Positions 26,305-48,888 of a stretch of DNA of 49,026 nt are shown here, one piece after another (the first letter of the stretch is position 1; each line of letters opens with the position of its first letter). Origin of the DNA: Microcaldota archaeon (GTDB lineage Archaea > Micrarchaeota > Micrarchaeia > Micrarchaeales > Micrarchaeaceae). The stretch is from assembly GCA_021817565.1 (NCBI GenBank), contig JAKAUP010000001.1, forward strand, positions 1 to 49,026. The letters run 5' to 3'. The translations under genes were made by a program, and so were the position numbers. A model generated the notes under the pieces. The model ran no database searches, was not told where the DNA came from, and worked only from the letters and a program-made list of their open reading frames with translations.

Positions 26305-27663
26305 TTAATCTATCGATTCTCTTTCTACAAAGGTCTGTATTTCCCCTGCAGACATATTGTAATGTTTCAACAAAAGTTTATATCTATACATATTTCTGTA
26401 GTCTATTCTCCGATTTATAACTTCGCCTATTAGAATATCCGTAACTATTGTAGTACTTATATTCTTGGATCCTGTTAATTTCATCAGTGCACTTTCCGTG
26501 CTTCCCAATTCGTCATCGTATATAGCTGTCCAAAATATCATCTCATTTCCTGATTCATTTATCATAAAAAATCTATTTGTCCATCTATTATACGTCGATA
26601 AGTACAACAAAAAGTTCTTCCTTCTATTTTCAAAATCTCTAATGTCCTCTATAACTAACCTTATAATTGCGACATACTTTATTTGCGGATTTTTCATAGA
26701 GGCAGAAATACTATATATACTACCTCTTTCAATTAATTTATCCAATGCCTTTCTGGAGCTACCTTTAGCTAATCCATACTCTTTATCTATTTCATCAAAA
26801 TGCACTCTGCTATTCTTACTCAAAGACCGTACAACCGCATACTCACTTCTCGATATCTGGCTCTCTTTAATTCTGGGCTGTTCCTTTGTTCTTTTCCATA
26901 CTCGCTTTTCAACAAAATCCGTAAAGAAAATATCTCTTATCCTTAAAGTTGTCCCAGAAACATAAATTGCTTCAAACTTCCCTCTATATTTCATAAAAGT
27001 ATCGCTAATTTGAACCCGATACACCCATTTGTTAAACTCATATGCATTATCAAAAAGTGCATATATCCCTAAATCACAGTTCCCTCTGCCCAAAAAAACA
27101 AGCTGCACATGTGGATCCTTTTCAAAGAAATTTATCAACTCATCTCGTGTTGGCTGCACCCCGTAGAACTTCGCCATAACAAAATAACAATTTGCGACTC
27201 CCAACTTTTCCGGATACAAGATTGCTGTGTAAAAAAGTCCAAGCTTCTTTTCTAATACCTTTAACCTTTTGGCTACGCCCTGAGGCGTCATCCCTACCTT
27301 CTCTGCTATCTTTCCAAGCGTCGCTCTCCCATCCGACCCCAAAATATTCAGTATCTCTTTATCCTTCCTGTATACTTCCTCCTTTTCTGCCATCCTGTGC
27401 TCTACTGTCTGCTGCCTTATATAATTATCAAGATTCTTTATCCCTTCAAGCCTCTTTTTCCTGTGTGGCTCCACGTACTTTCCATCATCCTCTATCTTTC
27501 CCATGTACAAGGTGTACGTCCTAACCTTCTTCAAAGCCTTGTCCCACTCTGACCTTTCCTCGTATAAGTAGAAACCTCCATTTATCCTTTTTACAGTCAA
27601 CTTCAGCTTTCTTTCCCTGTTTAACTCATCAAGCCTTTCCCTTACCTTTTCCGGAATCTCCAT
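26305..27663 (-). CDS. Large Lrp-like transcription regulator with two winged helices
   Basis: A 452-residue protein. The N-terminal ~85 residues, with NGGFYLYEERSEWDKALKKV and TLYMGKIEDDG, resemble the N-terminal region of some archaeal transposases. Then an Lrp/AsnC-like helix-turn-helix (LGKIAEKVGMTPQGVAKRLK, about 115-135) with a ligand-domain-like stretch, and a second winged helix (about 285-325) with another such stretch. It is clearly AT-richer than its neighbours and ends beside the AT-rich repeat region, consistent with transfer. Minus-strand TATA at about 27692-27703 suits its ATG at 27663. Targets unknown. Confidence 0.72.
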   Translation of the reverse strand: MEIPEKVRERLDELNRERKLKLTVKRINGGFYLYEERSEWDKALKKVRTYTLYMGKIEDDGKYVEPHRKKRLEGIKNLDNYIRQQTVEHRMAEKEEVYRKDKEILNILGSDGRATLGKIAEKVGMTPQGVAKRLKVLEKKLGLFYTAILYPEKLGVANCYFVMAKFYGVQPTRDELINFFEKDPHVQLVFLGRGNCDLGIYALFDNAYEFNKWVYRVQISDTFMKYRGKFEAIYVSGTTLRIRDIFFTDFVEKRVWKRTKEQPRIKESQISRSEYAVVRSLSKNSRVHFDEIDKEYGLAKGSSRKALDKLIERGSIYSISASMKNPQIKYVAIIRLVIEDIRDFENRRKNFLLYLSTYNRWTNRFFMINESGNEMIFWTAIYDDELGSTESALMKLTGSKNISTTIVTDILIGEVINRRIDYRNMYRYKLLLKHYNMSAGEIQTFVERESID

Positions 27664-46898: not shown

Positions 46899-46921
46899 TA
46901 ATCCCCGCAAAACATCAAGGT

Positions 46922-46994
46922 GGGGAGCTACGCTAACCTGGTAGACTGCTAGCTTTGGGAGCTAGTAATCGGAGTTCAAATCTCCGGCTCCCCA
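46922..46994 (+). tRNA. tRNA-Pro (anticodon UGG)
   Basis: A 73-base cloverleaf. GGGGAGC pairs with GCTCCCC; the anticodon stem CTAGC/GCTAG encloses TTTGGGA, giving TGG; the T-arm is CGGAG-TTCAAAT-CTCCG. No CCA and no intron. The AT-rich CYTH-kinase gene begins about 205 bases downstream. Confidence 0.95.
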
Positions 46995-47199
46995 ATCTTT
47001 TCGGGGGGTTATATATAAGTCATAGATTTTGCACCCTCTCCTTAGACTATGTGCATGGTCAATAACCTAATGTAATTTATCATGATGGCAAAAGCTAGAA
47101 AAACTTAAATATATGGCTCACATAAAATAGTTTGGCGTATTAGAAAAGGCCAGATTTTGTAAGTTAAGCGGTTGGAAATTAGAGTAAAAGAGGTTTATA

Positions 47200-48888
47200 A
47201 TGGAAGTTAAAAAATCTAAAATGAACAAAGAGGTAGAAAGGAAGTTCATAATAGAAAGTATCCCTAAAGACCTAGATAAATTCAAACACTACAATATATT
47301 GCAGGGGTACATAACATCATCTGAAAGTAGCGATGTAAGGGTAAGGAGGGAAGGTGGCACATACTTAATTACTGTGAAAAGAGGTTCCGGTATAGAAAGG
47401 AATGAGACTGAAGTAAAACTGTCTGAAGAGCAATTTAATGAACTTTGGAATGCAGTAGAAAACAAAATAGAAAAAACAAGATATGAAATACCTATAGACC
47501 GGTTTACCTCATATATTGATATTTATCATGATAAATTGGAAGGTCTCGTGGTCGGCGAGGTCGAATTCATTTCTTTGCAAGAGGCTCGATCCTTCAAGGC
47601 TCCGGAGTGGTTTGGCGCAGATGTTACGGATATCGAATACTACAAAAACAAGAACCTAGGAAAGTTAAGTGACCTCAACGCACAAAGACTATTGAGGGGA
47701 ATCATAGAAACCCCACTATACTCACTTAATCTTGGGATAGAACAGATACTTAAAGAAATCGAACGCCTATCAAACAACTCGACAGCACCTATAGTGGTTG
47801 AAATAGCCGGCGGGTCAGCTTCAGGGAAGTCAAGTGCAGTGGCCGGAAAAATAGCCACAGCGCTAGGAGATAAGGTAATAAAACTATCAATGGATGATTA
47901 CTACTTGGGTCAAAGCTACATTAATCGTAAAAAGGACGAAGGGATAAAGATCAATTGGGACCAGCCAGAAGCCATAGATATAAAGTCACTCGAAAGGGAT
48001 ATATCATTGCTAAAGGAAGGCAAGCCAATTTCCAAACCAGTTTACGATTTCAAGAGCGGCGAAACAGTATCTCATGAGAATATAGACCCCGCTGGAAAGA
48101 AGGTTATACTTTTAGAAGGACTGTTTTCCCTATATAACGGCCTAAGCGGCATCGGGAATCTAAAGGTGTTTATTGACGTCGCTTTGCACGATAGGATAAT
48201 CAGGCGCATAATCAGAGACGCAGATAGAGCATCATGGCGCTTTTCCGAGATGTTGCACTATATGCTTACAGTAGTAGAACCTATGTACAACAAGTACATA
48301 GAACCGCAGAAATACAATGCGGACATGGTCATATCAAATCCATATGTTCCAATGATTGAGGCGGCAAAGATAAAGACAGAGGAGAAACAAATAAAGTACA
48401 GGCTTGGAGAGAATGTGTTAACAGTGGCAGACAAGTTGGAACGATTGGGCGCCGACAGGCTTGGCGACTCAGAACAATATGACTACTATTTTACAAGACC
48501 AGACAGCAACTTAAAGAAAAGCGACGAAATAGTTAAGGTGCGAAAAGAAAACGGCGCAATACTGTTTGAATACAAGGGGCCAAAGCAACAGAGTGGAAGC
48601 AGGAAAAAGATGGTATTTGAGATAGATGAGGACACCTTAGCACTTATGCTCTCATACTATCAGCTCTCTCTCACAATAAAAAAGCACCGCACAATATACC
48701 GGTTTTTGGGAGCAACATTGTCGCTTGACAAAGACGTTACTGTACAAAATGGAATCAGAGAAGGACCAAAGAACCTCGGGAACTTCGTAGAGGTAAGGGA
48801 AAATACTGAGACAGAAACCCTTAGCAAGCTTGAAGATATGCTTGGTTTAAAAGATAACTTTTCAGAAGTTTATTCAAGAATGGAATAG
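47200..48888 (+). CDS. CYTH-uridine kinase-like-CYTH three-domain fusion
   Basis: A 562-residue protein. The first CYTH domain (about 8-165) has the ExExK signature EVERK (residues 11-15) and acidic and basic tunnel residues (VRVRREGG, ITVKRG, GEVEF). The middle (about 197-400) is a uridine kinase/phosphoribulokinase-like P-loop kinase: GGSASGKSS (204-212), DDYYLGQ and LLEGLFSLY. The C-terminal region (about 408-562) is a second CYTH-like domain, with VKVRKENGAILFEYKG, SRKKMVFEI, KKHRTIYRF and FVEVREN. CYTH proteins act on triphosphates. ATG 47200 is taken; ATG 47221 is also possible. It is AT-rich and follows tRNA-Pro. Confidence 0.9.
   Translation: MEVKKSKMNKEVERKFIIESIPKDLDKFKHYNILQGYITSSESSDVRVRREGGTYLITVKRGSGIERNETEVKLSEEQFNELWNAVENKIEKTRYEIPIDRFTSYIDIYHDKLEGLVVGEVEFISLQEARSFKAPEWFGADVTDIEYYKNKNLGKLSDLNAQRLLRGIIETPLYSLNLGIEQILKEIERLSNNSTAPIVVEIAGGSASGKSSAVAGKIATALGDKVIKLSMDDYYLGQSYINRKKDEGIKINWDQPEAIDIKSLERDISLLKEGKPISKPVYDFKSGETVSHENIDPAGKKVILLEGLFSLYNGLSGIGNLKVFIDVALHDRIIRRIIRDADRASWRFSEMLHYMLTVVEPMYNKYIEPQKYNADMVISNPYVPMIEAAKIKTEEKQIKYRLGENVLTVADKLERLGADRLGDSEQYDYYFTRPDSNLKKSDEIVKVRKENGAILFEYKGPKQQSGSRKKMVFEIDEDTLALMLSYYQLSLTIKKHRTIYRFLGATLSLDKDVTVQNGIREGPKNLGNFVEVRENTETETLSKLEDMLGLKDNFSEVYSRME

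Follow-up and report, generated by a model that had tools for sequence, protein, structure and literature searches.

The gene and its domain architecture

The window (the whole stretch of 49,026 nucleotides that was analyzed, from an archaeon of the Micrarchaeota) carries an open reading frame at 47200–48888 on the forward strand, which starts with ATG, contains no internal stops and encodes 562 amino acids. An earlier note on this DNA had proposed that two CYTH domains surround a PRK/uridine kinase (UK)-type kinase in the encoded protein. Analysis by Pfam, AlphaFold and Foldseek confirms this domain plan, and Pfam, PDB sequence and Foldseek matches were obtained for all parts. The N-terminal CYTH domain (N-CYTH), of the NeuTTM/inorganic-triphosphatase type, covers residues 9–157 (47224–47670). 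It is followed by the PRK/uridine-kinase-like P-loop kinase domain (residues 195–382; 47782–48345) and by a C-terminal CYTH domain (C-CYTH; residues 393–550; 48376–48849) with an SaTTM-like tunnel that has lost metal ligands; all three lie on the forward strand.

Pfam matched all three domains. The PRK match spans residues 199–379 (E 1e-26, whole protein). The C-CYTH match spans residues 398–539, with an E-value of 5.5e-17 for the whole protein and 3.7e-13 for the C-terminal part alone, and its PF01928 score of 50.1 bits against a cut-off of 23.2 places it in the CYTH superfamily. With the first 193 residues as a separate query, residues 9–123 matched the same family at 1.1e-5 (25.8 bits against 23.2). 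Among PDB sequences, the N-terminal part matched NeuTTM (NE1496; 2fbl/3typ) at about 5e-25, the middle and C-terminal parts together matched Arabidopsis TTM1 (7z66) at 4e-24, and the C-terminal part alone matched SaTTM (7ns8) at 1.4e-9. Profiles of the two CYTH domains match each other weakly (hhalign probability 60.6, E 8e-5).

Structure prediction of the whole chain from a 45-row alignment gave a confident AlphaFold model (mean pLDDT 89.6, pTM 0.76) in which the N- and C-terminal domains are beta-rich. When this chain was compared with the PDB by Foldseek, the kinase plus TTM module of TTM1 ranked first (3e-23), in line with the kinship to the plant TTM1/TTM2 pair that had been supposed. Uridine kinases, NE1496 and SaTTM ranked lower. 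The NE1496 match (2e-13, TMt 0.74) assigns the tunnel fold to N-CYTH, and SaTTM was matched at 3e-11 (TMt 0.77). The genome to which the window belongs is 775 kb in size and 97% complete; the gene occurs there once, and a search of this genome gave no further close match to CYTH or UK.

Catalytic motifs of the N-terminal CYTH domain

In alignments with NeuTTM, the ExExK motif (E11-V-E13-R-K15; 47230–47244, forward) and the ExE motif (E120-V-E122; 47557–47565, forward) of N-CYTH are intact, and R47-x-R49, K60 and K92-x-R94 are also retained, so that the ExExK, RxR, Lys and ExE elements of the NeuTTM type are all present. NeuTTM is a known inorganic triphosphatase (PMC3440374). Neither ExExK-position motif in the protein is preceded by the HF of the class IV adenylyl cyclase (CyaB) signature, and the NCBIfam cyaB score was 40.9 bits against a cut-off of 57.95; on both counts, a CyaB identity was rejected.

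The three-domain relative in genome G025 has lost the catalytic motifs of its N-CYTH, which is therefore dead. Triphosphatase activity is therefore not essential to the three-domain plan. Several relatives are without an N-CYTH.

The kinase domain differs from canonical uridine kinases

The kinase domain contains a Walker A motif (GGSASGKS, residues 204–211; 47809–47832, forward), of which G204, S208, G209 and K210 are invariant, and a catalytic aspartate, D232 (47893–47895, forward), that is kept throughout the family. The Walker A lysine K210 is accompanied by D232 (UCK2 D62), D254 (D84), R336 (R166) and R339 (R169). Thus, the Walker A motif and catalytic Asp of Udk/UCK enzymes are both found, and the succession of a UK domain and a CYTH domain on one chain is that of TTM1/TTM2-type proteins.

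The nucleoside-binding set H/Y117, R174, R176 and Q/R184 is not found in the kinase domain. The positions of UCK2 H117, R174, R176 and Q184 are occupied by G287, A344, W346 and Y354, and these positions are altered in nearly all members of the family, whereas nearly all canonical sequences in the alignment keep them. The domain also misses both NCBIfam uridine-kinase cut-offs (udk, 129 against 220 bits; PRK05480, 138 against 180 bits). In the kinase tree, the UK-CYTH kinases and TTM1 are split from Udk, human UCK2 and TthCK at 88/91, in a tree in which TTM1 forms a long branch and the bootstrap had not converged. With the nucleoside-reading residues replaced and the scores below threshold, uridine kinase as the specific identity is not supported.

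These observations bear on the idea that a true uridine/cytidine kinase passes its product to the triphosphatase (channelling). The PRK/UK fold, Walker A motif, catalytic Asp and D84 would suit such an enzyme, as would the pyrimidine-salvage context of relatives. Nevertheless, the family-wide absence of the nucleoside-reading residues of UCK/Udk and the low udk and PRK05480 scores argue against it. Furthermore, the kinase and CYTH chemistry cannot be chained directly because CYTH domains do not act on nucleoside monophosphates. We regard channelling as doubtful.

The C-terminal CYTH domain keeps the tunnel but not all metal ligands

In C-CYTH, the ExExK motif is replaced by ExQxK (E395-K-Q397-I-K399; 48382–48396, forward) and the ExE motif by E531-V-R533 (48790–48798, forward). 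Mapping onto SaTTM gave E5 as E395, E7 as Q397, K9 as K399, R56 as K446, R58 as R448, K69 as K459, K110 as K495, R112 as R497, E135 as E531 and E137 as R533. In the SaTTM structures, metals 1 and 2 are both coordinated by E7, metal 2 also by E5 and E137, and metal 1 also by E135 (PMC8233210). Two of the four metal ligands, and with them the ExExK and ExE sets of an active TTM, are thus missing from C-CYTH, while the basic phosphate-gripping residues are kept.

This pattern is shared by the family. At the position of E7, 19 of 20 relatives have Gln and one has Tyr; the second Glu of ExE (E137) is absent in 20 of 20, and E135 is mostly kept. The positions of K9, R58, K69, K110 and R112 are each retained in 19 or 20 of the 20 relatives. 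Because it is held over sequences that are only 33–41% identical, the pattern reflects conservation rather than decay. The idea of two triphosphatases on one chain is not supported by this comparison, since only N-CYTH has the motifs and C-CYTH lacks two metal ligands; to judge by its residues, C-CYTH resembles a tunnel conserved for binding more than it does a triphosphatase. Retention of E395 and E531 may allow some metal binding and hydrolysis.

The corresponding motif is also broken in plant TTM1/2, where it reads TYILK (PMC9582125). These proteins prefer PPi, and W/YxRxR is the motif of their CYTH group, cluster 7 (PMC8233210). The W/YxRxR motif is absent from C-CYTH, which has I444-V-K446-V-R448 instead; W or Y is found in none of the 20 relatives, and all 20 have I, L, V, Q, G, S or T at SaTTM position 54.

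The tRNA-Pro locus

A tRNA-Pro(TGG) at 46921–46995 (forward), confirmed as real, lies upstream of the gene. In congener G001, whose RFC is 86% identical, nucleotide similarity runs from the upstream genes through RFC to tRNA-Pro and stops at the 3′ end of the tRNA, beyond which CYTH-UK-CYTH is absent. The spot after tRNA-Pro is therefore variable, which would suit the suggestion of a gene acquired after this tRNA. The case for a recent foreign acquisition is mixed, however. In G007, which belongs to another genus of the family, the same RFC/tRNA-Pro block is followed at a distance of 4.3 kb by a CYTH-UK-CYTH gene. The tRNA end is not repeated past the gene in the window, where 138 bp remain before the contig ends, and the family has a pool of this gene of its own. 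The gene had also been described as AT-rich. Its GC content is mildly low (40.3% against 46.1% for the remainder), but inside the 37–51% spread of the window's genes.

The lowest GC content among the window's genes that were checked, 37.1%, was that of a 452-amino acid reading frame at 26305–27663 (reverse). Directly after tRNA-Pro in G001 there is a fragmentary CYTH unlike those of the window's protein, its reading frame broken into pieces in three frames (L281:5900–6600, forward). At the syntenic locus of G006 (L282:496–2898, reverse), a long reading frame is enclosed by two tRNA-Pro(TGG) genes that are separated by about 2.3 kb.

Distribution and history

Among 301 Micrarchaeota genomes, the three-domain plan occurs in the window's genome, G012, G016, G258, G241, G245, G007, G025, G257 (gene truncated at the edge of its contig) and G247 (where C-CYTH lies in a different frame); these about ten carriers all belong to one family. 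UK-CYTH without N-CYTH is found in G039, G027, G225, G002 and G167, and CYTH genes that stand alone are frequent. One of the latter is located directly upstream of the UK-CYTH gene of G167, on the same strand and unfused. Among 380 Patescibacteria, UK-CYTH occurs in G301 (Saccharibacteria), G650, G320 and G569, and the order and class of G569 include two full three-domain proteins, in G1288 (640 amino acids) and G1305 (587 amino acids). The plan therefore spans archaeal and bacterial lineages, both with very small genomes. The scan of genome contigs used one P-loop pattern, and the range given here, with carriers among the matches listed, is a minimum. Sampling of 301 Chloroflexota and 300 Bacillota genomes, with no positive control, gave no UK-CYTH at 1e-52 or better; the two matches in the Bacillota sample were both plain kinases. 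A virus-borne gene was rejected, as the three-domain protein had no relative in IMG/VR and a profile scan gave one plain kinase only.

The earlier note had found the plan unfamiliar, and none of the openly accessible papers searched describes a kinase flanked by CYTH domains on both sides, or the ExQxK class. UK-CYTH is already known from plants; what appears to be new here is the kinase between two CYTH domains.

The recurrence also bears on a possible artefact, i.e., a chimeric reading frame produced by misassembly, or a decaying pseudogene. The contig end only 138 bp past the gene might raise this suspicion, but the plan is shared by about a dozen independent genomes, which rules out chance fusion or misassembly, and the fold is confidently predicted. 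All three domains are under purifying selection, with an overall dN/dS of about 0.06 for the relatives in G258 and G016, a value that is indicative only because dS is saturated in two domains. The probability left for an artefact is negligible. With a layout that recurs in tiny bacteria, the protein looks like a real molecular machine, not a chance fusion.

Three- and two-domain proteins are intermixed in the trees. A single clade of three-domain forms was rejected with the UK-CYTH part (AU p 0.0025) and was borderline with N-CYTH (p 0.0435), in trees that contain long branches. Judged by these sequences, gain or loss of N-CYTH has taken place repeatedly. Such gain or loss, the many partners to which CYTH domains are fused in the same lineages and the two adjacent unfused genes in G167 would fit independent modules that are tethered in reduced genomes but functionally uncoupled, with fusion or loss of N-CYTH being neutral. 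Yet the order CYTH-UK-CYTH recurs in two phyla from different domains of life, and the UK-CYTH pair persists over wide divergence with a conserved C-CYTH pattern. We consider uncoupled modules unlikely.

As a separate observation, loci L014 and L036 (G018 and G265) contain a NeuTTM-type CYTH gene beside a second CYTH gene on the opposite strand.

Neighbors and fusions of relatives

A single 903-amino acid reading frame in Patescibacteria genome G569 (L163:1692–4400, forward) encodes UK-CYTH-UPRTase-cytidylate kinase. In the sister genomes G302 and G650, a dCTP-deaminase-like gene lies about 20 bp downstream of UK-CYTH. In Micrarchaeota genome G054 (L159:7982–9199, reverse), a UK-like kinase is fused to NUDIX, another phosphoanhydride hydrolase, at the place where CYTH would be. 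These few cases suggest a role in pyrimidine nucleotide metabolism, a link that is made by a single fusion and two sister genomes among mostly heterogeneous neighbors. A conserved operon was rejected: neighbors vary by genome, except for local synteny among close relatives and the dCTP deaminase in the two sister genomes. With the G569 protein as a single-sequence query, which is weak evidence, no UPRTase or cytidylate-kinase match was obtained in the window's genome.

The G569 fusion is relevant to the main rival of the reading we prefer, namely that C-CYTH acts as a TTM1-like pyrophosphatase. In that case, N-CYTH and C-CYTH would remove PPPi and then PPi, pulling a PPi-releasing nucleotide reaction forward, and the kinase would supply nucleotides. 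Plant TTM1/2 hydrolyze PPi despite their broken ExExK (PMC8233210), the N- and C-domains would act one after the other, and the UPRTase in G569 is a PPi-releasing enzyme. On the other hand, C-CYTH lacks the W/YxRxR of the TTM1/2 cluster, and there is a single UPRTase fusion; the nearest order-mate of G569 that has the gene carries N-CYTH instead. We rate this TTM1-like reading as possible but rather improbable, and channelling and uncoupled modules as less likely still.

Other CYTH fusions were noted in the same phyla. In Patescibacteria G532 and G676 (L168:2629–6207 and L169:2924–6946, both forward), a class I tRNA synthetase, apparently isoleucyl, contains a CYTH-like insert at about residues 255–434, in the region of the editing domain, in which the Lys of ExExK is lost. 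Pfam alone did not call this insert, and BLAST with the window's N-CYTH found it at 1e-20 or better. The L169 synthetase has a His_Phos_1 insert as well (residues 688–851). In six further Patescibacteria loci (L166, L167, L174, L175, L176 and L178), a NeuTTM-type CYTH and a P-loop domain are fused in either order, the latter being AAA_28 (Pfam) in L166 and L174, and L170 and L171, also from Patescibacteria, encode HD-CYTH fusions. A long protein of Micrarchaeota G055 (L015:1456–3489, reverse) combines a B12-binding domain with a C-terminal CYTH-like domain.

Proposed working of the protein

The best-supported reading, which we hold tentatively and as somewhat short of probable, combines a non-canonical kinase with a triphosphatase that is active and with a degenerate tunnel that grips phosphate as a sensor or holder for the kinase. 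From the observed architecture, recurrence, motif states and context we infer the activities, their coupling and the sensing role. Three phosphoryl-handling modules would thus be present on one polypeptide. N-CYTH probably works as an inorganic triphosphatase that depends on Mg2+, converts PPPi to PPi and Pi and perhaps also acts on short polyphosphate. The middle domain is predicted to be an ATP-dependent kinase that belongs to the TTM1-type branch within the PRK/UK family. Its substrate is probably a noncanonical (pyrimidine) nucleoside or another sugar-like compound in nucleotide salvage, with a specificity unlike that of a canonical uridine/cytidine kinase.

The C-CYTH tunnel, which in most relatives is linked to the kinase, would still grip a tri- or pyrophosphate chain despite the loss of the glutamate common to the two metal sites and of the final ligand of metal 2. 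Judged solely by this motif loss, it is most likely a module that senses a ligand or holds a product (NTP, PPPi or PPi) and tunes the activity of the kinase. By analogy with what is reported for plant TTM1/2, it would have at most residual pyrophosphatase activity.

A more far-reaching proposal, which we consider a minor possibility, is that the CYTH domain linked to the UK senses triphosphate in its tunnel without hydrolyzing it and gates the kinase allosterically, and that the signal is reset by the triphosphatase activity of N-CYTH in the same protein. If true, the tunnel fold would gain a signaling role besides hydrolysis and cyclase activity, and the sensing tunnel would be common to ultra-small archaea and bacteria, with a broken-motif form in plant TTM1/TTM2. 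The function of the kinase half of TTM1/TTM2 and the reason for their broken CYTH motif are unexplained in the literature searched. The UK-CYTH pair in minimal archaea and bacteria, with its conserved retention of basic residues and loss of metal ligands, the further fusions to UPRTase/cytidylate kinase or NUDIX, and the second, intact CYTH on one chain with it, makes this question testable with small soluble proteins, and the concrete lead is a phosphate-sensing tunnel that tunes pyrimidine nucleotide salvage.

Comparison with known systems

The protein can be related to four known systems. N-CYTH is 35% identical to NeuTTM (NE1496; 2fbl, 3typ) in the Foldseek alignment and keeps every catalytic motif, whereas NeuTTM is a single-domain protein. 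C-CYTH has the fold of the archaeal triphosphatase SaTTM (Saci_0718; 7ns8–7nsf) and all its basic phosphate-binding positions except R56 (K446), but differs by the replacement of E7 with Q397 and of E137 with R533, and by being joined to a kinase. With UCK2 and the Thermus thermophilus kinase 3asy, the middle domain shares the fold, Walker A motif, catalytic Asp, D84, R166 and R169, while H117, R174, R176 and Q184 are replaced and the clade appears to be separate.

The likeness to Arabidopsis TTM1/TTM2 (7z66, 7z67), cluster 7 of the SaTTM paper, extends over two domains. In both cases the kinase precedes a CYTH domain on one chain, the kinases share YDFKS and PMY..(F/Y)IEP, and the alignment spans the kinase and part of the CYTH domain. 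The ExExK of the CYTH domain is broken in both, as TYILK there and as ExQxK here. The plant proteins, however, are without the N-terminal CYTH domain.
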